Origin: Agrobacterium larrymoorei | GTDB taxonomy: Bacteria > Pseudomonadota > Alphaproteobacteria > Rhizobiales > Rhizobiaceae | Length of the DNA: 64,000 nt | NCBI RefSeq assembly: GCF_013322225.1 | Contig: NZ_JAAMFB010000027.1 | Coordinates: forward strand, 62,001-126,000 | Reading direction: 5' to 3' | In this document: positions 1 through 43,900 of the stretch, one piece after another | How positions within the stretch are numbered: position 1 is the first letter of the stretch | Layout of the letters: each line of letters begins with the position of its first letter | Made by a program: the position numbers and the translations under genes | Notes under the pieces: model-generated | Databases searched by the model: none | The model's input: only the letters and a program-made list of their open reading frames with translations | Told to the model about the DNA's origin: nothing

Positions 1-1222
1 AACCGGGGTCTTGTCTTCGATCAGAGATAGCAGGTTCTCGCCCGTCGCCGCTCTCTTCGGCTCCTGACCGGTGGCGCGGAACGTCTTGGTGATTTGGTCG
101 TCAAGATCGGTGCGATCCGTGACGATGACGATGCGCGCCGTCGCATGTGCCATCGCGATGGACTTCGCCAGCATCACCATCGTCAGGCTCTTGCCCGACC
201 CTTGCGTGTGCCACACGACACCACCCTGGCGGCGGCCTGCGGCGTCACGCTCCTCGATGCGTTTCATCAACGTCTCGATGGTCGCCACCTGCTGATAACG
301 CGCCACCTTCTTGTGGGGGCCGTCGAACAGCATATAGCGGCGTATCAGCCGCATGAAGCGCTCCGGCCGGCAGAGGCCGACGATCGTCTCATCCAAAGGC
401 GTGACGAACCGATGCTCCTCCATCAGGCCGTCATGACGCTTCATATATTGGGGCGAAATCCAGGGCCACACGCTTACCCTCGACGGTGTCGAGCGGCCGA
501 TTGACCACGTCCACCGCGAAGCCGGGCGGGTCCTCTCGTTCCTTCCACACGCTCCAGAGCTTGCGCGGCGTTCCCATGGTGCCATAGCGAGGATCATAGC
601 TGTTGGCCGACAGCAGCAGTTGGGCGGAATAGAACAGCGCCGGCACACCTTCGCCAGCCTTCTGATTGCGGATTTGCTGGCTGACGCCCTGGTCGGCGGA
701 AACGTGTGAGGCCTTGACCTCGATCATCCCCAAAGGAATGCCATTCACGAAAAGAACGAGATCGACACGGATGGTCGGCCCGCCCGCTTCACTGACGGTG
801 TACTCGCTTGCCACCTGAAATGTGTTGGCGCGCCAGTCGTTCCAGTCGATAAACTTGAAGGGCCACTCACGAGACGTGGCGCCGATGGATTGTGTAAGGG
901 CAATGCCGAGCAGCAGGTCGTCGGTCATCCGTTCGTTGGCGCGCACGACGCCCTCGGGGATGCGCTCGGCGAGTCGACGAACCGCAGCATCGATATTCGC
1001 TTCGGAGAATGGATAAGCCCGTCCATCGACATGAATGCGGTTGATCCGCGCCAGATCATCCCGGATCTGGGTTTCGAGGAACGGCAGCGTGCGCCGGCCG
1101 TCGCGCCATTGATCGGTCTCCGCCCGGGTCACGTAGCGCCAGCCGCAATTGATCAGCGTGTGCAGCGCCTGAAGCTGCGCGCTACCCGCCTCTGACGTGG
1201 TGAACTCAGGCGGTCGAGTCAA
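1..1222 (-). pseudogene. hsdR: Type I restriction endonuclease subunit R, frameshifted and cut by the window edge
   Basis: The first part (about 1222 down to 455) encodes the N-terminal nuclease region of HsdR: a PD-(D/E)XK-like core is visible in VDLVLFVNGIPLGMIEVKAS. The stretch from about 450 down to 1 continues in another frame with the helicase core, including WHTQGSGKS (Walker A of the translocase) and VTDRTDLDDQ. The switch falls at a run of four C bases near 451-454, so one extra base best explains it; without it translation stops at 431. The start is taken as TTG at 1222 because GGAGGG lies eight bases upstream. The 3' end lies beyond position 1. HsdR would cut DNA as part of a HsdR2M2S complex, but hsdM is not in the window and hsdS is broken. 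A sequencing error in the C run is possible. Confidence 0.8.
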
Positions 1223-1469
1223 TTTTATCGCCCTCCAGCGGCAAGATTGGGAGTGTGAATTGTTCCGTTTTTTCAACGCTATGAGGCGCAGAGAGCGGAA
1301 AGCATGCCGCGAAAATAGGTGTGACCCATTCAACAAAATGTTGACTTTTGGCGATTAGAGTGCATATGAACACTACGAGTTCACTGCCCATCGGCTTTGA
1401 ACCTATCGAGGCTTCGGGCGCTGAGCCAGCGTAGCAAATCAGCGCCCGCAAATCTTTTTTAGAGCGCAT
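1206..1469 (-). CDS. Hypothetical small protein between the DUF3800 gene and hsdR
   Basis: An 87-codon frame whose ATG overlaps the end of the DUF3800 gene and whose stop lies just past the hsdR start. AAGGAGG sits nine bases before the ATG, which is as good a ribosome site as any nearby. I recognise no family. The middle has a mildly hydrophobic stretch with several Cys and Ser residues. It could be a real small operon gene, or only a frame that carries ribosomes through the 237-base gap to hsdR. Codon use is not strongly biased, so this stays uncertain. Confidence 0.35.
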   Translation of the reverse strand: MRSKKDLRALICYAGSAPEASIGSKPMGSELVVFICTLIAKSQHFVEWVTPIFAACFPLSAPHSVEKTEQFTLPILPLEGDKIDSTA

Positions 1470-2147
1470 TCAGGCAATCCTCCTTGTTCCACAAAGGGGA
1501 CTGCCGGATTTTGCCAATGCTGTTGTCTGCCTCGTAGCACGTCACGAAGTTGGCCTTCAGCGTACCGTCGGCCTTCTTGCTCAGGCGGATAGCCGACTGC
1601 TGGCTGCGCCGAGCAACAAGTCGCAGAGCTGGAGAAGCGCCACTTCCGGCGATGGCAGCGACTGAACATCAGCGATGGTCGCCGACTTATTGGCATAGTC
1701 GAGGCAGCGCTTTAATACCCTGAGCCGGGTGCGGTCGCGGTTGCTCTTTAGATCGCAGAAGACGCGGTATTCGTTGAAGTCGAGAATCCAGTGGTGCAGG
1801 AGCTGGTAATAGAACTTGTAGAAGCCAAGCTCGCCATCGCCATCATGGAGCGCCAGATTGACCTGGGTTCGATCCACAGCGATGCAGCGGAAGCGCATGT
1901 CCATGCCGTAGCTCATGAACAGATCGACAAGCTCGTGATAGAAATCGGCTTTGGCCGGCGAAATCTTGGTCCACTTCGCCTCACCCCATACGCCGTGGCG
2001 TTCGCGCAGGCGCCCGATCTTCTCCTTGGCATCCTCGCGCAGCTCCGCCGGCAGCCAAAGGCTGCCGATCATCAGATAGCGGGCGCGGGGCTTGGCTGAC
2101 GTGAAAAGATCGGGTTGGGCTTCGTCGCAATAGACCTCGAACTTCAT
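1459..2147 (-). pseudogene. DUF3800 domain protein, frameshifted
   Basis: The N-terminus (MKFEVYCDEAQPD) with the downstream motifs FCDLKSNRDRTRL and QLCDLLLGA marks the DUF3800 family, whose RNase H-like fold is often found in defence and mobile loci. After LLLGAAS the frame changes near 1600-1612: the continuation LSKKADGTLKANF runs on in another frame to TAA at 1459-1461. As written, the main frame stops at 1581 after 188 residues, about 40 short. It begins inside the last codons of hsdS (ATGA overlap), so it was part of the restriction operon. Function is unknown; a nuclease-like role is only family inference. Confidence 0.72.
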
Positions 2148-2632
2148 GAGCGCCCTCCGACATTCAGCGGGCGCGGGCTCAAGGCTTCAGCATCGAAGCG
2201 CTCGTCTAGGCGCCACTCACCCGTCAGCAGTTTTTGCATCAGGCCGCGTTTTTGATTCTCTAGCAGCGCCCGATAAGCTTCTGTTTTGCGAAGTTCGAAT
2301 GCCACAGCGTTCAGGATGGTCGCGCGCTTTTCCTGCTCAGCTAGCGGCGGCACAGGGATTTCGCTTTCAAGAAAAAGCTCACGATTGAAATTCTTTCTTA
2401 CAACGCTGGCTCGCTCAGTAGAGCATGAACTTAAAATCTCTCGAAAACCCGCGGTGCGAACAAGGTGCCTAAAGTACTCTGCGGAAGCAGTTGGCTTAAA
2501 TCGAAAGACTTTGTAGTCTGGAGAAATGCATACATCGTGCTTCAAATGGCTTACTGCCACTGAGCCAAGCCAGAAATTCAAGCCACTAAGAGCGAATTCG
2601 TTCGGCTTGAGCAGTATAGAGAGGCAACGCCA
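2144..2632 (-). pseudogene. hsdS: Type I restriction specificity subunit, 3' fragment
   Basis: The readable part matches the second half of HsdS: a target-recognition end (NFWLGSVAVS, ISPDYKVFRF), then the conserved helix entry IPVPPLAEQEKRATILNAV and the C-terminal NQKRGLMQKLLTGEWRL typical of specificity subunits. Upstream of about 2632 the frame no longer looks like HsdS and runs antisense through the fseA-like gene. The 5' half, with the first recognition domain and the central repeat, has therefore been lost or replaced. Its last codons overlap the DUF3800 gene by four bases. Without a full HsdS the complex cannot select a target, so the locus is judged inactive. Confidence 0.75.
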
Positions 2633-3425
2633 ATGCTGAGTATCGACTGGCGTTCTCCGGCGGCATATAAATTTGCCAAGAGCATTTCCGCCGCCGGTTT
2701 CGCTTGGGAGTATCTTCGCCGCGACGACGAGTATCGTGGCGAGTTTCAGGCCATCATCGCGTCGCCTGAGCCAGACCCGGAGCGGCTGGAAGCTTTTGCG
2801 CTGCGGTGGGGGCTGCGATTTTCCGACCGATCCTGAAACCCCATCGGATCGGCAGACTCTATTCTGGAGCCCACACCTCCAGCCGCAGGCCATACGGCTC
2901 ATGCCGCTGGAGCACCATGATGGTGAAACCGAACCCATCGTCACGCTTGCGCATCTCGACGGTCTCGACCTCCGCCAGGCTGAGGATGGCTGGCACGGCA
3001 TCTGGCAGGCTGACGGCGTCGCGCATCAATTCTGGCTGCCCCAGGCCGCTCCCGATGCGGCGGCCTTCTATGGCACGGTCTTGCCGGCGGACGCCTTCTA
3101 CGATCTCCGCTCTCATGCGGCGCGTCGATTGGTTAAAGCAGTTCAGGGCCACGGGCCGGGGCGCGATTTCCGCGCATTGCCCGCGCAACTCAGGCAATGG
3201 CACATCCTATCTCTCCGGGCCCTCGACGCTCGGCTTCGCGGCGAAAGCTATCGTACTGTCGCCGAAGTTCTGCTAGGCTTTCGCGGCAATAAGGAGGATT
3301 TTGAGCTCGATCCGCGCAAGAACAAGGCCCGCCGTCTGATCGCGCACGGCATCAAAATGATGCGCGGCGGCTATCGACTGCTACTGCACTATCCCATCAA
3401 GCTCCCCAGTCGGAGATGGCGATAG
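2633..3425 (+). CDS. fseA: FseA-like excision activator (DUF6499 + DUF2285), needs +1 frameshift
   Basis: Two overlapping frames form one gene. Frame A (2633-2836, 67 codons) is a DUF6499 domain: WRSPAAYKFAKS, WEYLRRDDEYR, LEAFALRWGLRF. Frame B carries the rest, from PTDPETPSDRQTLFW to a C-terminal DUF2285 helical domain (LRALDARLRGESYRTVAEVLLG, GGYRLLL), but has no start of its own. Frame B is +1 to frame A. A shift on UUU-U at 2819-2822 would join RF to PTDPE and give about 263 residues. In the Mesorhizobium symbiosis island, FseA is made by +1 programmed frameshifting of the same domain pair and activates the excisionase gene rdfS; an rdfS-like gene lies at 7924. Start ATG 2633 has GAGAGG upstream. 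Plain decay by one-base loss is the alternative. Confidence 0.72.
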
Positions 3426-3489
3426 AACATCACCTCTCCACGTCTTTGCCGCAACGTTTGCACTCTCTGCCGCAGGCAACGCCCGCCGG

Positions 3490-4494
3490 TTATTGTTGAC
3501 TCGTTTGTGGTGCGTCAGCCTCGGACTTCGCCAGTGCCACTGCAGTGTCCTGCGTGTCCTCAAGTGTTGATTGAACGTCAGGGCGTACGCCGACACCCTC
3601 CCAGTTGCTTCGCGTGACTGGATTTTCAGCCCTGCCAGTCGGCACAACGACAAAGAGATCCGATCCGAGTTCATTAAGCCCGCCCGGATTCGCACCTCCG
3701 CGGGTGGCCGTGCCGACTACGATCGCCCGCCGAAGGGCTTGCAAGTCATATGCGAATTCCTCGCCAGCCGAATAGGTCTTCGGACCGACCAGAACGTAGA
3801 CCGGTTTGCCGACGTAGCGCACTGGCGTCGGCGAACTCCAGAACGATTCCGTTCTGAACGTCAACGTCCCGCGATTGCGCCAGATGAGGTCGTTGATATG
3901 GACGCGCGCACCCTGGTCGAGGAAGAAGCTCACGAGGTAGGCAACGGATGCCGGATGCCCGCCGCCATTCTCCCGCATGTCAATGATCAGCGCGGCGGTG
4001 TCTGACAAGCTGCGCATGGCCTGGTCGGCGGCCGGATTGAAAACTTCAGGCGGAACGAACCGCGTCAAATGAATATAGCCGATATTGCCGTCTAGCCGCT
4101 TCACCTCGAAACCGGCATCCTGCGGGCTCGCTGGCGTAGGCTGATTGCCGAAGGGCGAACCGAATATCACCCGCACATGACCGTCCTTCGTGATCGCCCG
4201 GAGTTGCTCCGTTAGCTGCATCGCAAACTGCGCTGGATCGGTGACGCTGCCATAGGCGTTTTCCGCCAGTGCCTTCTCCAGCGCCTCCGCCGCCTGCGCG
4301 CCCCTTTCCGGGAACACGTAGCCCTCCCGCAACTCGGCGGCGATACCACCGATCGTTTTGGCGACCGTTGCCCGATCCAAGGTTACGCTTTGCGCGGAGG
4401 CGGGAGGCACATCGGCTCGCGCCGCAAGAGTGCTTGCCGACAGTGAAATCGCCACGAGGGAGACAGTAAGGAACGATGAGTAGTTATGGGACAT
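3490..4494 (-). CDS. S41 family peptidase, exported (IRBP/CtpA-like)
   Basis: 334 residues. An N-terminal signal peptide (about residues 1-27, ending ASTLAARA) sends it to the periplasm. It has the helical N-terminal part seen in retinoid-binding-like S41 proteins and then the S41 core: IDMRENGGG near residue 173 and the nucleophile motif TYSAGEEF near 242, where Ser is catalytic and a Lys in the fold acts as base. No PDZ insert is obvious, which fits the IRBP-like branch rather than tail-specific protease CtpA. It lies alone between the fseA-like gene and a broken transglycosylase, so it is probably element cargo. Substrate unknown. Confidence 0.82.
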   Translation of the reverse strand: MSHNYSSFLTVSLVAISLSASTLAARADVPPASAQSVTLDRATVAKTIGGIAAELREGYVFPERGAQAAEALEKALAENAYGSVTDPAQFAMQLTEQLRAITKDGHVRVIFGSPFGNQPTPASPQDAGFEVKRLDGNIGYIHLTRFVPPEVFNPAADQAMRSLSDTAALIIDMRENGGGHPASVAYLVSFFLDQGARVHINDLIWRNRGTLTFRTESFWSSPTPVRYVGKPVYVLVGPKTYSAGEEFAYDLQALRRAIVVGTATRGGANPGGLNELGSDLFVVVPTGRAENPVTRSNWEGVGVRPDVQSTLEDTQDTAVALAKSEADAPQTSQQ

Positions 4495-4570
4495 TCAAAC
4501 TCTACCTCACGAAAAGAGCGCATGACGCGGATTAGATCAAAATAAGACCACGAATACGATTCGTGTATCG

Positions 4571-5226
4571 CTACTGGCAACCCTCAAGCCAAACATCCGA
4601 AAAGCCCGCAGGCACACACGCTCCGGCTGCCAGACGCTGGATACGGGCAGCGCGTTCGTCGAGCTTGGTGTCGCTTCGAACGAGATCATAAGAGGCCGGC
4701 GCTATCAGCACCGCCGCCAACCGGACAAACTCGGTTTCGGTCAGCTCGGCTGGAGGCCGCCCGTAGATCGCTGAGCTTGCCGAATGGAAGCCGACCATCC
4801 AGCCATTTGGCCCCCTGCCCATTTCCAGCGTCTCCAGCCACAGGGCAAGGATCTGCTCCTTGGAAGACGCCTCTCCAGCCCTAACGCATAACCGGTCTGG
4901 CGGATCTTGCCGATGCCGGGATGAAATTCCTCAAAGGCGAGCCGCTTGGCAGCCGATTGAGTGATGGTGGTCAGTCCAGCGCCCGGGGTGGAGAAATCAA
5001 CACCGGAATGCGTTGAGAAATTCGGGTCTTCGACCGCGAGCAGAATAGCCCTATGGGCTGCCCCCAGAGAGTCGCCGCCGCGGCCTTGAGCAATCACCGC
5101 GTCGGCACGAGCGCGCAAGCCCTCGGCATCGGATAGCGCATCCCAGTATCCCTTAGCGCCATAACCGAAAAGGCCGACCAGCAAGAGAGCAAATGCAACG
5201 CCCGCATATTTAAGTATCCGCATCAT
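4571..5226 (-). pseudogene. Monofunctional peptidoglycan transglycosylase (GT51), frameshifted
   Basis: The first frame (from 5226) has one N-terminal membrane helix (about residues 8-22) and GT51 motifs: AVEDPNFSTHSGVDF, with the catalytic Glu, and TTITQSAAKRL. After GLERRL the frame is lost; the continuation SKEQILALWLETLEMGRGPNGW runs in another frame to TAG at 4571. Restoring one base at about 4866-4868 (CTT CC to CTT TCC) joins the two. The repaired product would be about 217 residues, near the usual size of MtgA-like enzymes that polymerise glycan strands from lipid II. As written the second half, with substrate-binding helices, is not made. Confidence 0.78.
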
Positions 5227-5306
5227 TCGATCTGCATGTCCCTCAGATTGGTCTTACGTTGATTCACTCATCGAGGCTTCAGCGATTTAGATGAGTGTTT
5301 TCGCTG

Positions 5307-6101
5307 CTACTCGGTATTCAGAGGCTGACGCCAAAATATGAGAGACCCGGCTGCTACCGCCGCCAAGAGCCATGCCAGTAGTGTGGCGAAACCCGTGATG
5401 CCGTTCGACCCTTCGGCACCCGCAAAAAGCCATGCTCGCGCGGCATCGGCAGCAAAGGACGGCATGGGAACGCTGGCTATGGCAGCGCCAAAATAAGCTT
5501 GCAGGATCGAGCACGTTATCCCTACCAGAAATACTGGAACGACTGCCGCGATCATGCTCCGGAATATAATCGTGAGCGTCGCGGTAACTGCAGCAAGGGT
5601 CGCCAGTTCGAGAAAGGCGATTACAAACGCCGCACAGAGCACGAGGATACTGCCCGCTTGGACTGGGGTTCTATTGCTGGTGCCGCCGCCGAGAAAGCTA
5701 AGCGCAGTGTTGAGGATCATGTCTCCGACGACTGTCAGAACAAGACCGATGACCATGCACAGGAGGCAAACAGCGAGTTTTGCGGCGGGGAGAGGAATGC
5801 GCCCTGTCCGTGGCACGAGGTTACGCCAAGCCGAGAAGCGGTATTCGACGTAGAAGACAGAGGAAACACCGATCGCATAGAGAAGCTGTGCAATCGGATT
5901 GCCTGCGATGCCCAATGATTGCGCGGCTGACAGAAGCGCATCGGCTTGTACTTGCGGGAGGTTTCCTGATCGTAGGACGAAAAAACTCTCCAGCGCGATC
6001 TTAAGGCCGAGTGCGGCGGCAGGAACCGACAGGAACCCCCAGAATAGAATGCCCGGCTGTCGTAGAAGCTTCAGAAGCTCGGCCGAGAGTAGAGCGCTCA
6101 T
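5307..6101 (-). CDS. ABC-2 type transporter permease
   Basis: 264 residues from ATG 6101, chosen because it overlaps the ATPase stop as ATGA; an upstream in-frame ATG lies inside the ATPase gene. About six hydrophobic segments are visible (for example ILFWGFLSVPAAALGL, LAVCLLCMVIGLVLTVV, IAAVVPVFLVGITCSIL, LLAWLLAAVAAGSLIFW), as in BcrB-type permeases. With the ATPase it should form an inner-membrane exporter of the kind that gives immunity to peptide antibiotics or removes lipids. The substrate cannot be read from sequence. Confidence 0.8.
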   Translation of the reverse strand: MSALLSAELLKLLRQPGILFWGFLSVPAAALGLKIALESFFVLRSGNLPQVQADALLSAAQSLGIAGNPIAQLLYAIGVSSVFYVEYRFSAWRNLVPRTGRIPLPAAKLAVCLLCMVIGLVLTVVGDMILNTALSFLGGGTSNRTPVQAGSILVLCAAFVIAFLELATLAAVTATLTIIFRSMIAAVVPVFLVGITCSILQAYFGAAIASVPMPSFAADAARAWLFAGAEGSNGITGFATLLAWLLAAVAAGSLIFWRQPLNTE

Positions 6102-7069
6102 TGTGGCTCTCTCCGCGTTTCCGACAGGAAGACCGACTCCAGATCGGGAGTGATCCATTTTGCTTCGAATATCCGGATGTTCGCGTTTACAAGCGCGCGT
6201 ATGAGTTCAGGTGCATCGTCGCGCCCAATTCGAACATAAACTCCACCGTCACCTGCATCGGCCCGCGATGCCAAACGCTCCAGCACGGTTTGCGGTGAAT
6301 CAACGTTTATCCAAAAGCGAGCTTGGCTGTCGAGCAGGTCAGCGACTTTCCCATGCGCCGCCATTCTCCCGCTCCGCAAGATCGCGACGCGCTCGCACAC
6401 GCGCTCCACCTCGTCGAGGAGATGGCTCGAAAGCAGCACGGTGATGCCGTCCCTCTGGGCTAGATCAACGATCAGCGAACGCATTTCAAGGATGCCGTCC
6501 GGATCGAGACCGTTCGTCGGCTCATCGAGAACGATAGCGTCTGGCCGGCCGACGAGCGCGCAGCCGATCCCCAGGCGTTGTTTCATCCCCAACGAGAATG
6601 CAGCTACCTTTTTGTCCGCGGCGTAGCCGATGCCAACGCGCCGCAGAATAGGCTCTACCATTGTGGCGGACTCGTTCATCCGAGCGAACATTTCCAAGTG
6701 CTCGCGTGCGGTCAGGAATGGATAGAACGCCGGGGCCTCGATCAACATGCCAAGGCGGCGTCGCGATTCCCTGCCAGCATTTTCTCCAAATATGGAAACC
6801 GAGCCGCGATCAGGGCGCACGAGGCCAGCTATGATCCGTAGCAACGTGCTCTTGCCGGCACCGTTCGGACCCAGCAGGCCGTATACGCAGCCTTGCGGAA
6901 CACCAAGAGAAAGCCCATCGAGCGCCCTAAAGGCACGGCCTCCCCATCCAAATCTTTTCTCGACGCCCGAGACTGTAATGGCGTCTTCCTTATCTCCAAT
7001 GCTCAATAAATGATCCCGCCTCAAGCATCTCAATCCTCGTGCCGTCAATGGCGTACGGCACGAACTCAT
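6098..7069 (-). CDS. ABC transporter ATP-binding protein (BcrA-like)
   Basis: 323 residues with all ATPase motifs in order: Walker A GPNGAGKST near residue 71, Q-loop region RRLGMLIEAPAFYPFLT, signature FSLGMKQRL near 159, Walker B IVLDEPTNGLD near 180, and the H-loop in LLSSHLLDEVE. The signature has SLGMK in place of the usual SGGQ, which is typical of the bacitracin/lantibiotic exporter branch. The first 21 residues do not look conserved; TTG at 7006 with GGCGGGA seven bases upstream may be the true start. It is coupled by a four-base overlap to the permease. Confidence 0.85.
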   Translation of the reverse strand: MSSCRTPLTARGLRCLRRDHLLSIGDKEDAITVSGVEKRFGWGGRAFRALDGLSLGVPQGCVYGLLGPNGAGKSTLLRIIAGLVRPDRGSVSIFGENAGRESRRRLGMLIEAPAFYPFLTAREHLEMFARMNESATMVEPILRRVGIGYAADKKVAAFSLGMKQRLGIGCALVGRPDAIVLDEPTNGLDPDGILEMRSLIVDLAQRDGITVLLSSHLLDEVERVCERVAILRSGRMAAHGKVADLLDSQARFWINVDSPQTVLERLASRADAGDGGVYVRIGRDDAPELIRALVNANIRIFEAKWITPDLESVFLSETRREPQ

Positions 7070-7081
7070 CTTCCGGTTAGC

Positions 7082-7372
7082 CTATAAGTGATTGTTGGCA
7101 ATCTCTTGTTCGAGAATGCGTCGATAGCCTTTGTTTGCGATCCACCGGGCGCGTTCGAGGTGGCTTTCCCAGCATCGCCTCGTCTCTGCTTCATTACGGA
7201 GGGGATCGCGGTGCAGAACGATGCGCGCGACCTCCTGCCAGTCCGCGCCGTTTCGGCTGGCATCTAACAGCCGCAAATAAGTTACGTAGTGCTGTTCGTC
7301 ATAGGTCGTGATATCGGGCCCCCTGGGGGCCTCATTTTCAACATCTGGATCAAGCAGAGGCCGTTCACGCAT
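7082..7372 (-). CDS. DUF2285 domain protein (stand-alone)
   Basis: 96 residues. The core HYVTYLRLLDASRNGADW, EVARIVLHRDP, TRRCWESHLERARWI and GYRRIL has the same helix layout as the C-terminal domain of the fseA-like gene, so I place it in DUF2285, a DNA-binding-like domain common in rhizobial integrative elements. AGGG lies before the ATG. It is divergent from the XRE gene over a 134-base gap that holds direct repeats. A regulatory role in element transfer is likely by context but not shown. Confidence 0.65.
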   Translation of the reverse strand: MRERPLLDPDVENEAPRGPDITTYDEQHYVTYLRLLDASRNGADWQEVARIVLHRDPLRNEAETRRCWESHLERARWIANKGYRRILEQEIANNHL

Positions 7373-7461
7373 GAATTCTGCCCTTTTTTATCGAGAACGC
7401 GGACATAATGAAGCACTTCAGGACAACCCGATGAATAGCATGGCCTGATACGAATGGGAAT

Positions 7462-7498
7462 GATCGTTCCTAGAAGGATCGTTCCTATGCTGGTTCCT
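7462..7498. promoter_or_regulatory. Direct repeats between divergent DUF2285 and XRE genes; probable operator
   Basis: GATCGTTCCTA occurs twice, at 7462-7472 and 7477-7487, 15 bases apart, followed by a partial copy GGTTCCT at 7492-7498. The first copy also forms an imperfect palindrome (GGAATGATCGTTCC, 12 of 14 positions symmetric). They lie directly before the XRE start at 7507, where a repressor would block its own promoter. Confidence 0.5.
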
Positions 7499-7506
7499 CT
7501 TTTGTC

Positions 7507-7728
7507 ATGGATCTCAAGGAGGTCATGGCGAGGAATCTGCGTCGGATCCGCCATGATCAAAATTTGACGCAGGAAGAGCTCGCCGACCGGGCAGGCTTGA
7601 GTATGCGTTACATCGGAGCCATCGAACGTGGCGACGTGTCCGCCAGTGTCACGGTTCTTGGCCAGATCGCCGAGGCACTTGGGATCGAGCCGGGCGAATT
7701 GCTGAAGAATACCAGCGCGCCAAAGTAG
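7507..7728 (+). CDS. XRE-family helix-turn-helix regulator
   Basis: 73-74 residues, almost all one HTH_3 domain: RRIRHDQNLTQEELADRAGLSMRYIGAIERG is the helix-turn-helix, followed by the usual closing helix LGQIAEALGIEPGELL. Such small Cro/CI-like proteins control mobile-element genes. Start chosen at 7507, which has no clear ribosome site; ATG at 7525 has AAGGAGG but only two bases away. It is divergent from the DUF2285 gene and upstream of the excisionase-like gene, so it probably represses the element's lysogeny/excision switch. Confidence 0.85.
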   Translation: MDLKEVMARNLRRIRHDQNLTQEELADRAGLSMRYIGAIERGDVSASVTVLGQIAEALGIEPGELLKNTSAPK

Positions 7729-7923
7729 TCATCTAGTCATAACATGTAGCCAGACGCCCGCCGCTTCTGCCTCCTAACAGGGATTCCAGCCTGCATGCCC
7801 CGGGGTGCCGCCTGCGCATAAGTGCAAATGCGGCACGCTACCCGCCGCCGATCCCTCGCCATGGTTCGCCGTAGCCCGCTGCCACGAAGGCAGCGCGCAT
7901 CACGACGAACCAGAGGTGTCTCC

Positions 7924-8193
7924 ATGGCCAATCCATTGGCGGGCCTGCCGCCGCGTCTCCTGCGCACGCAGGAAGCCGCCCGCTTCCTCGGCATTTCCAT
8001 CCGTACCCTTGAGAAGCACCGGACCTACGGTACCCGCCCGACCTATCGAAAAATCGGCGGCCGCGTCCTCTACACGGTCCACGATCTCGAAGCCTGGACT
8101 GAAATCGGCTCCCGCAAATCTACCCGCGACATCACCGGCAGCACGGTCTTCCCCGCGCGTCCGCTGACGCCCGAAGAGCGGGGTAAGTGCTGA
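7924..8193 (+). CDS. AlpA/RdfS-like helix-turn-helix protein, candidate excisionase
   Basis: 89 residues. LLRTQEAARFLGISIRTLEKHRTYG is a MerR/AlpA-type winged helix-turn-helix and GRVLYTVHDLEAW is the usual wing end of excisionase-like proteins. Start ATG 7924 is chosen over 7822 because AGAGG lies seven bases upstream and the residues before it are an arginine-rich run with no family look. In rhizobial elements this protein class is the recombination directionality factor RdfS, which turns the integrase towards excision and is activated by FseA. It is followed after one base by the probable repA start, so it may also head a replication/transfer operon. Confidence 0.7.
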   Translation: MANPLAGLPPRLLRTQEAARFLGISIRTLEKHRTYGTRPTYRKIGGRVLYTVHDLEAWTEIGSRKSTRDITGSTVFPARPLTPEERGKC

Positions 8194-8280
8194 ATGCTGC
8201 ACGACGATCACAGCCCAGCGCAGCCGGCCGACACGAGCGAGCGCAATCACCTGCCCCCGTTCGTGGTCGCGACGGGTGAC
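8194..8280 (+). pseudogene. 5' remnant of a gene after the excisionase, probably a replication initiator
   Basis: The ATG lies one base after the excisionase stop. The first 29 codons (ending PPFVVATGD) look coding and resemble the N-terminus of RepA-like initiators that often follow this excisionase in rhizobial elements; that family call is weak. From 8281 the frame runs antisense into the integrase, so the gene has been cut by a deletion. Confidence 0.4.
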
Positions 8281-8281
8281 G

Positions 8282-9100
8282 CTAGACGTTGTGCGGCTTG
8301 GAGCGCTTCATCCGCTCCTTCGGGATCGACCACACCGCATTCTCGAAGTCGACCTCATCCCACACCGCGTCCTGCAACTCGCTCTTGCGGACCATCGTAA
8401 GCAGGATCAGCTTCAAGCCGAGCCGGATGGTCGGCAGCGTCGCCACATGCTCTAGCTGGCCGAGCATCACCCGAATTTCGGCGGGCGAGAGCGAGCGGTC
8501 CTTGGGAACGAACGTCGCGATCGACGCCGGACCGACCTCTTCGGCGGGGTTCGACACCTTTTCCCCGTGCAGCTTCGCGAAGGCGAAAACCAGCTTCACG
8601 ATGTCGCGGACATGGACCGCCGTGGCCGGCGCTCCTCGCTTCTTCACCTTGTCGCACATTGCCCGGAGATCTTCGGGTGTGATTTCCGTCAGCAGCCGAT
8701 TGCGGAACGTCGGCAGGATGTCCCGCTCGTAGATCGAGCGGCGCATCGCGCGGGTGCTTTCGGCCATCCGGTGCTCTTGCAGCCAGCGTTCGCCAAACTC
8801 GCCAAAGCTCTTTGCTTCCTTGATGCGGCGCTTCTCGCGCTGCTTCTCCTGGGCGGGTGACCGCCCTTCCTGAATCGAACGCTGTGCGTCGATCAGCTTC
8901 TCCCGCGCACGGGCCAGAGAGAGGCCCGCCGGTCCGTATCGGCCGAGGGTCAAAGTCTCGCGTCGACCGTGCATACGGTAGTCATAGCGGAACACGACGG
9001 CACCCGACGGGGTCACGACGACATACATACCGTCACGGTCAGAGACCTTATATAATTTGTCCTTTGGTTTCAGTGCCTTGATTGCCGCATCAGTAAGCAT
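8282..9100 (-). pseudogene. int: Tyrosine-recombinase integrase, C-terminally truncated
   Basis: 272 residues remain of a P4-type integrase that is usually about 400. The DUF4102 arm-binding domain (KALKPKDKLYKVSDRDGMYV, LGRYGPAGLSLARAREK) and the core-binding SAM-like domain (about residues 95-180) are present. The catalytic domain starts (LTMVRKSELQDAVWDEVDF holds the first catalytic Arg) but stops after KRSKPHNV. The HxxR motif and the tyrosine nucleophile are missing, so it cannot recombine DNA. The break coincides with the end of the repA-like remnant on the other strand, which points to a single deletion. The gene is adjacent to the guaA 3' end, the expected attachment site. Confidence 0.88.
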
Positions 9101-9292
9101 CGGACCCTCCTAGATCGTTCAAAAAACGCCAGAGAGCCTTTGAAAATACCGTCAGGCCAAAATCGACCAATCGTGATGGCAAATTATCCTTTATTCTCAA
9201 TGGAATAAGGTCGAAAAAAATACCGTCACAAGCTCTCTAAGCCATGACGGTATATGCAATTCTGCGATGTCACAAGACGGCCCATACCGTCA
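9027..9292. repeat. Five copies of ATACCGTCA at the integrase start and upstream
   Basis: ATACCGTCA is found at 9027-9035 (inside int), 9146-9154, 9220-9228 and 9284-9292, and inverted (TGACGGTAT) at 9245-9253. The copies at 9220 and 9245 face each other. Short repeats beside an integrase and its attachment site are typical arm-type sites for the DUF4102 domain; operator sites for an excisionase are the other option. Confidence 0.65.
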
Positions 9293-9419
9293 GCTCCGCC
9301 GTCGATCGCGAGGCTTGCCCGGCGATTGACGGCGAAAGATGGCGGAGAGAAAATTGTTTATTTTCAGCGTGTTATTGAGGGAAATCGGCGGCTATCGGCG
9401 GCGTCTGGGTAGGTCCGAA
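9101..9419. other. Gene-free stretch between int and guaA: element end and attachment region
   Basis: 319 bases with no credible gene. It holds three direct and one inverted copy of ATACCGTCA and an AT-rich part near 9181-9220. The junction with guaA should be the attR/attL side of the element, within or next to the last codons of guaA (near 9420-9440). I found no second copy of that gene end elsewhere in the window, so the other element end probably lies to the left of position 1. Confidence 0.5.
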
Positions 9420-10997
9420 TTATTCCCATTCGATCGTACCCGGTGGCTTAGACGTCACGTCGTAAACCACGCGGTTGATGCCCTTGACCTCGTTGATGAT
9501 GCGGGTCGCCGCACGTCCGAGGAAATTCATGTCGTAGGGATAGAAATCGGCCGTCATGCCGTCGACGGACGTGACGGCGCGCAACGCGCAGACAAAGTCA
9601 TAGGTGCGGTAATCGCCCATGACACCCACGGTTTGGACCGGAAGCAACACGGCGAAGGCTTGCCAGATCGTATCGTAAAGACCGGCCTTGCGAATTTCGT
9701 CCAGATAGATCGCATCTGCCTTGCGCAGGATATCCAGCTTCTCGCGCGTCACAGCGCCAGGGCAGCGGATCGCCAGGCCCGGACCGGGGAAGGGGTGGCG
9801 GCCGATGAAGCTCTCCGGCAGGCCAAGCTCACGACCGAGCGCGCGAACTTCATCCTTGAACAATTCGCGAAGCGGCTCAACCAGCTTCATGTTCATGCGC
9901 TCTGGAAGACCGCCGACATTGTGGTGGCTCTTGATGGTAACCGAAGGGCCTCCGGAGAAGGACACGCTTTCGATAACGTCTGGGTAAAGCGTACCCTGTG
10001 CGAGGAACGAAGGAGCGCCCTTTCCGTCTGCCGCGATTTTAGCGGCTTCCGCTTCGAAAGTCTCGATGAAGAGGCGACCGATGGTCTTGCGCTTCACTTC
10101 CGGGTCAGACACGCCAGCCAGTTCCGTCAGGAACAGATCGGAGGCATCCACATGGACGAGCGGAATGTTGTAATGATCGCGGAACATGCCGACGACCTGT
10201 TCGCTCTCGGCCTGACGCATCAGGCCGTGATCGACGTAGATACACGTAAGCTGATCGCCGATTGCCTCGTGAATAAGAACGGCCGCAACCGAAGAGTCCA
10301 CGCCGCCGGACAGACCGCATATAACGCGCTCAGAGCCGACCTGCTCACGAATTTTACGGATCATTTCGGCGCGATACGCGGCCATCGTCCAGTCGGACTT
10401 GAGGCCAACGATCTTGTGGACGAAGTTGGAAAGCAGCTTCGCGCCGTCTGGCGTATGCACCACTTCAGGATGGAACATGGTGGTGTAATAACGGCGCTCT
10501 TCGTTGATTGCGATGGCGAAAGGCGCGTTCTCGGAAGTCGCGGCCACTTCGAAGCCTGCTGGAAGCTGTGTCACGCGGTCGCCGTGGCTCATCCAGACGG
10601 GGTAACGTCCGCCGAGTTCCCAGAACCCGTCGAACAGAGGGCTAGCCTTTTTGATCTCGATATCGGCGCGGCCGAACTCCGCCGCATGGCCACCTTCCAC
10701 CGTGCCGCCGAGCTGCGTGCAAAGGGTCTGCTGGCCATAGCAGATGCCGAGGATCGGAATACCTGTATCAAATACTGCCTGAGGCGCGCGTGGGCTGCCT
10801 TCCGCCGTTACCGATGCCGGGCCGCCGGAGAAGATCACGCCCTTCGGCTGTAATTTCTCAAAGGCTTCCGCTGCGCTCTGGAACGGGTGGATTTCGCAAT
10901 AGACTCCAGCTTCACGCACACGACGCGCAATGAGCTGCGTCACCTGGCTGCCGAAATCGATGATGAGGATGCTGTCGGGATGGGCTATCTGGGTCAT
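9420..10997 (-). CDS. guaA: GMP synthase (glutamine-hydrolysing)
   Basis: 525 residues, the normal length. It converts XMP, glutamine and ATP to GMP. The N-terminal class I glutamine amidotransferase domain has the nucleophile in GICYGQQTL (Cys near residue 86) and MFHPEVVHT with the catalytic His/Glu. The ATP-pyrophosphatase domain has the P-loop [10 protein letters not shown] near 230. The C-terminal dimer domain ends PPGTIEWE, the classic intact end. Because the element reaches up to the stop codon, the gene end may be supplied by the element's attachment core. It is single, with a 5' region of about 80 bases to the next gene. Confidence 0.97.
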
Positions 10998-11080
10998 GGC
11001 GAGCCTTTAAAGAAATCCTGGGCTTTAGGCAACCGGGTATATGGCCTGAAAAGCCAGAAAACGGGCTCCTTTGCAAGCCT

Positions 11081-11719
11081 TTACACCGCAATTGCTCCAT
11101 CCTTCAAAGCGTCGCACAGCCTGTCCACCGCATCTGCCAACTTCTCATCGATCACATGCAGGTACTCCGTCCAATCACCAATGTGGTGAACATCCGCTTT
11201 GCCATCGGAAATTCCTCGAAGGCCGATTACCGGTACGTCGAAACGCTGGCTCGCGCGAAGGATCGCAAATGTTTCCATCTCGACCATGTCTGCGTTGATC
11301 AAATCATACATCGCGCCGGAGACAACATTCGCGCCCGTCGAGACCCGAGCTCCGGTAACACCGGGGATGAAAAAGGGAAGGGGTATTTCCGCAGGTAGAT
11401 CGAGGAACGGCGTGCGGCCTTTCTCGAAGCCGAACGCGGAAGCATCCATGTCGCGGTAGGATACGGAGATCGCCTGATAGACTTCTGCCTGTTCCAGCGT
11501 GCGAGACCCGGCGGAACCGAGCGAAACGACGAGGTTGGGCAAGCGATCAGCCGCTTTGAGTTCGCTTAACGTTACCGCAAGCGACACGGCAGCCTCAACG
11601 GGGCCAACACCTGTCATCAATGGGTTGAACCGCGCTTTCAGATGCGGTCCATACTCCGCATCCGCCGCCATTACGAAGAGAAGGCGTTTGCTTGCGACGG
11701 TTAGAATTTCAAAGCTCAT
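11081..11719 (-). CDS. mtnN: 5'-methylthioadenosine/S-adenosylhomocysteine nucleosidase
   Basis: 212 residues of the PNP/UDP phosphorylase fold: RLLFVMAADAEYG (acid near the N-terminus), VVSLGSAGS, MVEMETFAILRAS with the ribose-binding Met-Glu, and GLRGISDGKAD with the catalytic Asp. It splits adenine from MTA or SAH in methionine salvage. It overlaps the upstream thioesterase gene by 11 bases, so the two are co-translated. The family call is firm; the exact substrate preference is not readable, and some rhizobial members are annotated only as phosphorylase family. Confidence 0.82.
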   Translation of the reverse strand: MSFEILTVASKRLLFVMAADAEYGPHLKARFNPLMTGVGPVEAAVSLAVTLSELKAADRLPNLVVSLGSAGSRTLEQAEVYQAISVSYRDMDASAFGFEKGRTPFLDLPAEIPLPFFIPGVTGARVSTGANVVSGAMYDLINADMVEMETFAILRASQRFDVPVIGLRGISDGKADVHHIGDWTEYLHVIDEKLADAVDRLCDALKDGAIAV

Positions 11720-12167
11720 TTTCGTCGAAACCTTCGCGGCCTTTGAGCACCATCATCGTGCCTGTCATCGAGGCGATCAATTTGGCGGGGCCATCGGAAA
11801 TTGCATAGGCGCGGCCATCGGCAACGATGATGTTGCTGCCCGGCTTGGTAATCTCCCCACGAAACAGGAAGCGGTCGCCGCGTCCCGGCGACATAAGGTT
11901 GACCTTAAATTCTATGGTCAACAAGGAGGCTTCCGGCTCGATGATCGTGTAGGCGGCATAGGTGCAAGCGGTATCGAGGGCTGCCGCAATGACGCCAGCG
12001 TGCAATATGCCATGCTGCTGTGTGAGCTTGGGATGAAACGGCAGCTCGATTTCCACTAGACGATGTTCAATTCGTGAAATCTCAGCCTTGATCGCCTGAA
12101 CGACGCCCTGACGAGAGAAGCTCTTTTCTATGCGCTGGCGATAATCGCCAGGATCGGTAAATTCCAT
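11709..12167 (-). CDS. PaaI-family hotdog thioesterase
   Basis: About 152 residues from ATG 12167, which has GGCAGGGG just upstream; an in-frame ATG at 12224 would add 19 residues without family look. The hotdog core reads HPKLTQQHGILHAGVIAAALDTACTYA, where the H-G-x-x-x-A/D pattern is the PaaI active-site region, then VEFKVNLMSPGRGD. Such enzymes hydrolyse acyl- or aryl-CoA esters. Substrate unknown. It sits upstream of the nucleosidase gene in the same transcript. Confidence 0.8.
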   Translation of the reverse strand: MEFTDPGDYRQRIEKSFSRQGVVQAIKAEISRIEHRLVEIELPFHPKLTQQHGILHAGVIAAALDTACTYAAYTIIEPEASLLTIEFKVNLMSPGRGDRFLFRGEITKPGSNIIVADGRAYAISDGPAKLIASMTGTMMVLKGREGFDENEL

Positions 12168-40924: not shown

Positions 40925-43900
40925 ATGTCCATACGCGCTGTTGTGAAAGCCTCGATTTTCATTCTTGCAGCGCTAAACGGTTCTCCGCTGGCGGCACAGG
41001 ATGCTGCCCGAAAGGTCGTGACGACCCAGAACGGTGATTATTTCGGCTTTGATCTCCGCACGGAACAGAATGTTTCTCTGCAGCAATGCGAAACGATATG
41101 CATCGATGACAAGAACTGTAAGGCATTTACCTATAATCCGAAGGTGAAATGGTGTTTTCTGAAGTCCGATTACAACCAACTCAATGCTTTCCCCGGTGCT
41201 GTCGCGGGCAAGGTTGTCGAGGCGGAAGTGGAGCAGGACATTGGGGCACCCCAGCGCCTCGCCTTTGTGGACGACAGTCTCTACCAGCAGGCGCGAAGGT
41301 TGAAGTCCGCTCTTCCTGAGCCCGATGAAACGCAAGACATTCAGGTTCTTCTCTCGGCAGCACGGCGGCAGGCGGTGTCGGATATTCCGCAGGCGGTCGA
41401 AAGTTATAAGGCCGCCCTTGCTTTGAGCCCGGATGATGGAGCGCTCTGGGCGGAACTTTCATCCGTCGAGGCCCGCGTCGAAAACAATTACGAAATTCTG
41501 GGTGAATCTCCTGCCGCAGCCATCAATGCCTATCAGATGAGCCGCACCGTTAGCGCCAGAACAGAAGCCTTGAACCGGTTGGCGGAGGCTTTCTCCAAGG
41601 GGCAAAATTATCGTGCGGCGCTTAATGCCTATAAGGCCAGTCTTGCCCTTTCGGACGTAGCGGCGACCAGAGCCATTTACGAAGACCTGAAAACACGGCA
41701 AGGCTTCCGTGTCGTCAATAACACCGTCGATACCGACAGCTTGACACCCCGCGCCTGCGTTCAGTTTTCCGAACCACTGGTCAAGAATGGTGTCGATTAT
41801 TCGTCCTTCATCACGCTGGATGGCGCAGCACCCAAGGCGATCGAGGCCAAAGGCAGCGAGATTTGTGTCGAAGGTCTGACGCATGGCCAGAGATACAAGA
41901 TCGCTCTGCGCGCCGGCTTACCGTCTTCGGTCGAAGAACCTTTGGCGAAGCAGGTCGATCTCGATATCTATGTGCGTGACAGATCCGGCTCCGTTCGGTT
42001 CACCGGTGACAATTTTGTACTTCCGGGTACTGCACGCCGCGGCATTCCGCTCGTTTCCGTCAACATAGAGCGCGCCGATCTCAAGCTTTATCGCGTCGGC
42101 GATCGCAACATAACTTCGCTTCTGGCAAATTCGCAGTTCCTAACGCAAATGGATGGGTACAATGCTGAGCGGATCGAAAACGAGATCGGCGAACTCGTCT
42201 GGCAGGGCGGCATCGATATCCAGACCGAACTGAACAAGGATGTCGTTACCAGCTTCCCAGTGGATGAAGCACTTCCGGATCGCAAACCCGGCATCTACAT
42301 GCTGACCGCAGTTCCGCCCGGCACGCCGCTGGAAAACTGGGGTTCACGAGCGACCCAATGGTTTCTCGTTTCCGACACCGGCATCACGACTTATGCCGGG
42401 ACCGATGGCCTGAATGTGTTCGTACGGGCGCTGAGCAATGCCAGACCATTAAAAGGCGTTGCGTTGCAACTCCTTGCCAAGAACAATGAAGTCCTTGGCA
42501 CCGCTACGACGGATGGAGATGGGCGTGCAACTTTTTCCGCAGGCCTGATGCGAGGCTCTGCGGGCCAGTCTCCCGCCATCATAACCGCCCGTAACGGCGA
42601 TAGCGACTATGTCTTCCTTGATATGACGAGGGCCGGTTTCGATCTTTCCGACCGTGGCGTGACCGGTCGCCCCGCGCCGGGCGCCATCGACGTGTTCAGC
42701 TGGACCGAACGCGGCATTTATCGCGCTGGTGAAACCGTTCACACTGCGGCACTTGCGCGCAATATCGAGGGCAACGCCATCGAAAACCTGCCGCTTACCT
42801 TCATCTTCTCCCGGCCTGATGGCGTCGAAGATCGCCGTTTTGTCAGTGACGGCAAGGCGCTTGGCGGCCACGCAATCGATCTTGTGCTTCAGGAGAACGC
42901 AATGCGCGGGACCTGGACAATGCGGGTTTACACAGACCTCAAAGCCAGTGCGATCAGCGAAAAGTCTTTCCTTGTTGATGATTTCGTGCCTGACCGAACC
43001 GAGTTCGATCTCGCTAGCGACGAAAAGGAAATAGACCCGGCAGCGGAAACTGCGATCAAAGTCGATGGTCGTTATCTCTATGGCGCACCGGCGGCTGGGT
43101 TGGAGCTCGAGGGCGAGGTTGCGCTGAAGCCAACTCGGACAAATGCAGGATTTGACGGCTACTTTTTCGGGTTGGCCGATGAAGAGACCGAAGAAGAAAG
43201 CCGCACGACGCTCGATAACCTCCCTGCGCTGGACGAAAACGGTAAAGCGACTTTCGATGTCGAGCTTGGAGATTTGCCATCCACTACGCAATTCCTTTCC
43301 GCCAACATCACCGTTCGGATGCGGGAAGCAGGCGGACGCGCCGTGGAGCGCACATTGTCACTCCCCGTCAAATCGCAAGGCAGTATGATTGGAATAAAGC
43401 CGGAATTTTCCGGCGATCTCGCGGAAAACTCTGTTGGACGTTTCCACGTCATCGGCCTTGCATCTGATGGATCGCGACAGGCAATGAGTGGCCTGAACTG
43501 GAAGCTGATCAAGGTGGAGCGGAATTACCAGTGGTATCGCCAGGGAAATTCCTGGCGTTACGAGCCGATCGTCTACACGAAACAGGTGGAAACCGGCAGT
43601 CTCTCCGTCAATACCAGCGGCGGCGAAATTTCTGCTCCCGTTAGCTGGGGTCGTTACCGCCTGGAAGTCGAGTCTGCAGGCAATGGCGGTGCGATTTCCA
43701 GTGTTGAGTTCGATGCTGGCTGGTTTGTTTCGGCAAGCTCCACTGAAACTCCGGATGCACTGGAAATTGCGCTCGACAAGCAAAGCTACAAAATCGGCGA
43801 AACCGCAAAACTACAGATTACCTCCCGCTTTGCGGGGCAATTGATGGTAGCGGCAGGTTCGGAAAAGCTGATTTCGGTTCAGAACGTCGACATTGGTGAG

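Follow-up and report, generated by a model that had tools for sequence, protein, structure and literature searches.

Comparative analysis of a 64,000-nucleotide stretch of an Agrobacterium larrymoorei contig (hereafter the window) indicates that positions 2633-3425 very probably hold a conserved fseA gene of the msi172-msi171 kind, in which a +1 slip at a UUU codon would produce the activator, within a truncated ICE. The gene encodes an FseA-family regulator, with a DUF6499 frame followed by a DUF2285 frame in +1 (Table 1). Within its frame-0 product residues 5-63 are recovered by the PF20109 (DUF6499-type) profile with an E-value of 3.3e-22, and the +1 frame, which closes with a stop codon at 3423-3425, is recovered by PF10074 (DUF2285/RovC_DNA-bd) with an E-value of 1.3e-24. 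These strong matches bear out the preliminary description, which had correctly placed the end of the DUF6499 frame at 2836 and the DUF2285 domain in +1. The AWEFLRRN-like motif of the FseA DUF6499 domain is present as AWEYLRRD in the window and in G350, a genome from another family of the same order, and as AWEYLRRN in G029. The accompanying statement that the +1 frame has no usable start was nearly right: a TTG far upstream (2673) and an internal ATG (2901) do exist, and the latter lacks a visible Shine-Dalgarno sequence and would exclude the conserved PxDP residues of the +1 frame. A search of positions 2300-3600 found no sigma-70-like promoter.

Table 1. Features of the fseA region and the adjoining element, in window coordinates
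Feature	Position	Strand	Remarks
hsdS fragment (type I restriction specificity)	2144..2615	-	antisense, directly upstream of fseA; N-terminal part missing
Remainder of native fseA leader	2616..2632	+	Shine-Dalgarno GAGAGG (2619-2624) and spacer; all upstream replaced
fseA frame 0, DUF6499 domain	2633..2836	+	67 codons; ATG 2633, TGA 2834-2836; PF20109
UGGGGG, Shine-Dalgarno-like	2807..2812	+	encodes W-G ahead of slip site; TGGGG in relatives
Candidate +1 slip site UUU-U	2819..2822	+	UUU-C in most relatives; CGA before it; TTT in 122/122 placed, 80/80 named loci
fseA +1 frame, middle region and DUF2285 DNA-binding domain	2823..3425	+	200 codons; PF10074
Cargo between fseA and qseM	3402..7106	.	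present in Stappia and, by DNA homology, Hoeflea olei
S41 peptidase	3490-4494	-	Pfam; within cargo
Transglycosylase-like fragment	4741-5226	-	match below Pfam cut-off
ABC permease-like	5307-6158	-	match below Pfam cut-off
ABC ATPase	6098-7069	-	Pfam; within cargo
QseM-like antiactivator	7082..7372	-	DUF2285 without DUF6499; PF10074 E 4.9e-8
QseC-like Xre/HTH_3 regulator	7507..7728	+	PF01381 E 1.5e-15; named by position and domain
FseA-box-like inverted repeat	7806..7835	+	TGCCGC-N18-GCGGCA; upstream of rdfS
RdfS-like recombination directionality factor	7924..8193	+	HTH_17 E 5.1e-8 (on 7822-8193)
repA-like gene, 5' end (named by eye)	8194..8285	+	374-codon frame in Stappia; cut at deletion junction
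Deletion junction	8283..8285	.	TAG common to both sides; Stappia's 22.8 kb absent
Integrase remnant, 272 aa	8283..9100	-	lacks HDLRR segment and C-terminal end of 418-aa Stappia copy
guaA	9420..10997	-	right end of element; adjoins integrase in three other genomes

The split arrangement and its predicted slip site

Searches with PF20109 were carried out in sampled and overlapping sets of 61 (relatives), 397 (order), 190 (class) and 299 (phylum) genomes, one of the searches scoring the 15 best candidates per genome only. They yielded 158 distinct DUF6499 matches, of which 152 including the window were examined, the six left out being G561 (below the cut-off) and five without a fetched locus. 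Relative to DUF6499, the DUF2285 domain, placed with a profile built from the examined loci, lay in the +1 frame in 125 of these 152, in the same frame in 17 and in the +2 frame in one, and was not found in nine. The 17 in-frame relatives are weak and distant, with DUF6499 scores of 25.6-48.2 bits, as against a median of 73.4 (range 25.0-91.1) for the +1 relatives. So among the window's nearer relatives the two-frame layout prevails, fusion being a feature of remote ones. A partly overlapping collection, found via motifs of the +1 half only and made up of 80 named loci (the top-ranking ones among 169 confirmed), contained no fused gene; in 79 of them the frame with the DUF6499 motif is set back by one base relative to that of DUF2285 and stays open as far as the junction, and the remaining one (L225) has no recognisable DUF6499. 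Among plasmids, tblastn of the +1 half matched 35 of 72,556 records, several of which are annotated as adjacent DUF6499 and DUF2285 proteins, and in one scan of viral contigs no relative was found.

The predicted slip occurs in the context CGA UUU U CC (2816-2824). The slip codon could be located in 122 of the 125 matches with a +1 split, and in every one of them it is TTT; the search pattern required Phe there, which limited the free choice to TTT or TTC, and the other Phe codons of the same genes number 640 TTC to 270 TTT. In these 122 the slip codon is followed by C 117 times and by T 5 times, and among the named loci TTTC occurs in 65 and TTTT in 15, with CGA-TTT in all 80. The TGGGG stretch is found at the same place in 115/122 placed relatives and 79/80 named loci. 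Past the slip the +1 residues are conserved from the outset, with the P-x-D-P directly beyond it showing P in 80, D in 78 and P in 80 of the 80 named loci, and P as the 4th +1 residue in 102/122 and 80/80. This comparison of relatives upholds the earlier choice of UUU-U as the slip point, and together with the prevalent +1 layout and the dN/dS in both frames (see below) it also sustains the identification as an FseA-like DUF6499/DUF2285 gene.

TTTT is present in 17 of the 82 rows of a tree from which identical halves and L234 had been dropped, and the tree, whose bootstrap values are rough and not fully settled, needs five changes to account for it. It is common to a clade of 11 sequences (support 100/99) comprising the window, Stappia sp., Hoeflea olei, two Rhizobium, Mesorhizobium, Chelatococcus, Neorhizobium, Shinella and two metagenome genomes. 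Given that it is common to the window's own clade, TTTT in the window is, on this sequence comparison, not damage. The hosts belong to several families, as would be expected if the element transfers. Re-pairing of tRNA-Phe(GAA) is less favourable on UUU-U than on UUU-C, and this counts against slippage at UUU-U.

Rates of substitution indicate that both fseA frames are coding. Between the window and G350 the dN/dS is 0.185 before the slip (frame 0) and 0.093 after it (+1), as against 1.3 and 3.9 in the respective wrong-frame controls; with G029 as the partner the two parts give 0.34 and 0.16, as against wrong-frame values of 0.78 and 2.4, making the frame-0 half of this second test the weaker one. 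On the window branch the part before the slip has 5 synonymous and 4 nonsynonymous changes, and the part beyond it 31 and 24. In the comparison with Stappia the +1 part shows 8 synonymous changes and 1 nonsynonymous one, and the frame-0 part 1 and 3, which are too few to tell; against Hoeflea olei the corresponding numbers are 21 and 9 for the +1 part and 7 and 13 for the frame-0 part.

Proposed mechanism, known systems and alternative readings

By analogy with characterised FseA, we infer frameshifting at fseA, and with it a sequence of ribosome pausing, slippage, activation and antiactivation. Close to UGGGGG, ribosomes translating the DUF6499 frame would pause, and on a minority of occasions tRNA-Phe would slip from UUU 2819-2821 to UUU 2820-2822, with +1 translation continuing through ...WGLRF-PTDPE... 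to give an activator of 263 residues. With the inverted repeat at 7806-7835 as its binding site, this product would turn on rdfS, and would itself be held in check by the QseM-like protein.

In the prfB gene a programmed +1 frameshift likewise combines a Shine-Dalgarno-like stretch with a +1 slip of the P-site tRNA. It differs in needing an in-frame UGA directly past the slip codon, whereas the position of the stop in fseA is free. One fseA relative, L125 (G128:C3:71839-71970), has UUU immediately before UGA (TTT TGA) and would resemble the prfB arrangement. RovC of Yersinia is not known to be frameshifted. The C-terminal DUF2285/RovC_DNA-bd domain of that protein is like the one in the window fseA, and a profile search of solved structures recovered RovC (PDB 6xz5, E 1.8e-6) as well as QseM (7uqt, E 0.006); the Pfam name of the domain refers to type VI secretion control, unlike fseA. 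An AlphaFold model of the read-through product (mean pLDDT 72.7, pTM 0.49, residues 63-105 below 50) has QseM as its best, weak, fold match (probability 0.92, E 0.53); the model was set aside as too weak to settle interdomain contacts.

Among the closest known counterparts is FseA (msi172-msi171) of ICEMlSymR7A in Mesorhizobium japonicum R7A, which has the same DUF6499-DUF2285 order and +1 split, and according to PMC10359603 also a UGGGGG encoding WG ahead of the site. The two systems further share qseM-, qseC- and rdfS-type partners, and the window has before rdfS a repeat that resembles the FseA box. Unlike the R7A system, the window element is truncated and has lost the native fseA leader; the UUU-U of the window clade may be a further difference. 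According to PMC10359603, a conserved +1 site divides about 61% of 4,709 FseA homologues into two frames. The window fseA fits this known split class and the kind of frameshift is already published; what is added here is the UUU-U slip-site clade, the dN/dS on both frames and the placement of the gene in an ICE remnant.

Other readings of the locus can be weighed against these observations. It could be a broken gene, in which a one-base deletion split a formerly fused one, as might be suggested by the decay of the surrounding element and by the 17 of 152 matches, distant as they are, that have both domains in one frame. The preliminary description had itself held that a clean fused gene in relatives would make this copy simply a broken one; among the close named loci, however, 79 of 80 are split alike and none of the 80 is fused, CGA-TTT is present in all of them, and both parts are constrained in their own frames, leaving breakage highly improbable. 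The four T residues of the window would be compatible with transcriptional rather than ribosomal slippage on a T run, but the relatives mostly have TTT followed by C (117/122 and 65/80) and a run of three T is too short for polymerase slippage, so that we give this reading next to no credence. Equally little can be granted to a stop-codon-driven shift at UCC-UGA (2831-2836), which had been put forward as a second slip point and draws on the prevalence of TGA as the frame-0 stop (107/122 and 78/80): since the +1 residues straight after UUU are conserved and the frame-0 stop wanders between 1 and more than 70 codons from the slip codon, the shift is placed at UUU and the earlier suggestion finds no support. 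Lastly, the two domains might be made separately, with DUF6499 as a peptide of its own and the DUF2285 protein starting from ATG 2901 or TTG 2673. The in-frame ATG at 2901 and the +1-frame ATGs ahead of the slip in 46/122 and 24/80 relatives speak for this, but the 2901 start would drop the conserved P-x-D-P past the slip and the choice of the TTT codon would be left unexplained, and we regard it as very unlikely. Such an arrangement has been argued in PMC9601964 for rihF1b/rihF1a of ICEAc in Azorhizobium caulinodans, which have the same domain pair and promote ICE transfer, and for which the authors of that source state that a frameshift is absent.

The window copy might also still function as a switch, acting in trans on some other element of its genome. 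The absence of inactivating changes in fseA, the FseA-box-like repeat, rdfS and qseM/qseC, with their frames open, would agree with this, as would five TrbE/VirB4-type matches in the genome. Against it, fseA is the sole DUF6499 match of the host genome and its leader is lost, and on balance we consider a role in trans unlikely.

The fseA leader

Position 2616, inside the fseA leader, is where the window starts to match Stappia and Hoeflea olei. In close relatives a hairpin lies immediately before the fseA start codon, with a CUCUCU paired to the Shine-Dalgarno arm; its 5' arm is gone from the window. Leaders with this hairpin include L203-L213, L215-L276 and others (e.g. L203 2740-2813). Among the 80 named loci, 71 provided leaders (nine being without a start by the rule used), which were reduced to 29 after removing near copies, and RNAalifold found the hairpin in these 29 distinct leaders. 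Their covariation is 0.298 versus 0.257 in shuffled controls (3 of 500 shuffles reach it) and their paired cells amount to 90.6% versus 88.1% (1 of 500), with pairing falling to 31-71% when the hairpin arms are shifted. Two-sided changes in the pairs of the 29 leaders show no excess (2 versus 2.1 in shuffles). Arm complementarity in 20 related leaders is modest (Fisher p 0.004); their folding z averages -1.9 and lies below -1.5 in 13 of the 20. The hairpin did not emerge from the consensus fold of an initial set of 13 leaders whose alignment was poor. By a covariance model, which scores conserved sequence as well as structure, 17 of 88 sources have the hairpin where fseA begins (E up to 0.022), four of these hits duplicating training sequences; the model gave no hit in the window.

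These comparisons provide moderate support for a leader hairpin that covers the Shine-Dalgarno sequence in close relatives and that may act as a translational lock. In 89 leaders of other subfamilies there was no hairpin signal (mean z -0.74, Fisher p 0.10). Occlusion of the Shine-Dalgarno sequence was also considered as a general trait of split fseA genes and rejected, with mean pairing in 106 leaders of 0.72 versus 0.67 shuffled. Rfam gave no match in window positions 1-12000 or in five relatives, and no mention of the hairpin was found in the literature searched, which excluded the founding 2015 PNAS frameshift paper. Overexpression of FseA is bacteriostatic in M. japonicum according to PMC10359603, and the hairpin, if real in cells, would constitute a further brake on an activator with this effect.

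The guaA-integrated element and its genes

Over window positions 2616-8285 the identity is 96% with Stappia and 95% with H. olei; the similarity to Stappia then resumes, at 81% over 8283-10985, 22.8 kb further along in that genome. The missing Stappia segment holds the rest of repA, conjugation-type frames (named by eye) and the C-terminal part of the integrase. This gap, together with the end of the left homology inside the fseA leader, implies by sequence comparison that the window holds an internally deleted guaA-integrated ICE. With 272 of 418 residues the integrase is incomplete and has lost its catalytic end, no relaxase or type IV secretion genes lie between rdfS and int in the window, and the repA-like remnant has no Pfam match. 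Judged from its sequence, then, the element is one that cannot excise via its own integrase. In Stappia, Rhizobium sp. NFR07 and Neorhizobium alkalisoli the interval from rdfS to int-guaA is longer and includes repA, and the latter two have fseA, rdfS, repA, int and guaA in the same order. They are also the nearest to the window guaA among ten named genomes, at 84% (NFR07) and 82% (N. alkalisoli), which agrees with a host in the Rhizobiaceae. In Mesorhizobium, ICEs are known to insert beside guaA (PMC8627217).

Since the native leader is lost and the element's own integrase is unable to excise it, the fseA switch has probably fallen idle, a remnant with a coding sequence that has yet to decay. 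The earlier proposal that a decayed element had kept this control thus stands for the coding sequence and the slip site but not for the leader. The hsdS fragment that directly precedes fseA matches PF01420 (E 1.7e-4) over profile positions 80-153 of 168 only, and the type I restriction gene hsdR, in window 1-1336 and L047 18021-19877, is split over two frames (HSDR_N in one and the remainder in the other). The five TrbE/VirB4-type matches of the host genome (G000:C58, C15, C18, C12) suggest that it probably harbours other conjugative elements.

A DUF2285-only gene of the qseM type lies near fseA, and the qseM-, qseC- and rdfS-like genes all have open frames and no inactivating changes, the RdfS-like protein being 91% identical in amino acids to the G350 copy. 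The cargo ahead of qseM is absent from G350, where the two homologous blocks are only 57 nt apart. The gap between fseA and qseM/rdfS measures 3.7 kb in the window and about 0.9 to 2.8 kb in L183, L189, L192, L195, L197 and L199, and looks like a recurrent insertion spot. A survey of the repeat before rdfS compared 23 loci, 20 of which had rdfS in the stretch covered; it is present with at most one mismatch in 13 of these 20 (window included), with at most two at the same place in three, and was not seen in four. As measured here the window arms are 18 apart, as against the 16 or 15 separating the hexamers of the FseA box in PMC10359603, and the window repeat is a candidate for that box.

A second FseA-box-like repeat is found near the integrase in Stappia (position 42307; L284+L293, joined 126001-173000 stretch), where it precedes a small HTH-like frame (AlpA-like by eye), and in NFR07 (L295, position 36939 of L294+L295); that of N. 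alkalisoli is diverged and misses the exact pattern. Given the repeat before the HTH-like frame in Stappia, FseA may drive two directionality factors. A broader, tentative scheme, towards which we lean somewhat less than away, is that in the guaA ICE clade the leader hairpin and the UUU-U/C slip jointly throttle FseA, which would fire both rdfS and the second directionality-factor-like promoter, the window having lost the hairpin and kept the slip. On the window branch the qseM-like gene (7082-7372) has undergone 9 synonymous and 19 nonsynonymous changes, versus 6 and 9 on that of G350, perhaps reflecting relaxed constraint in the window lineage.
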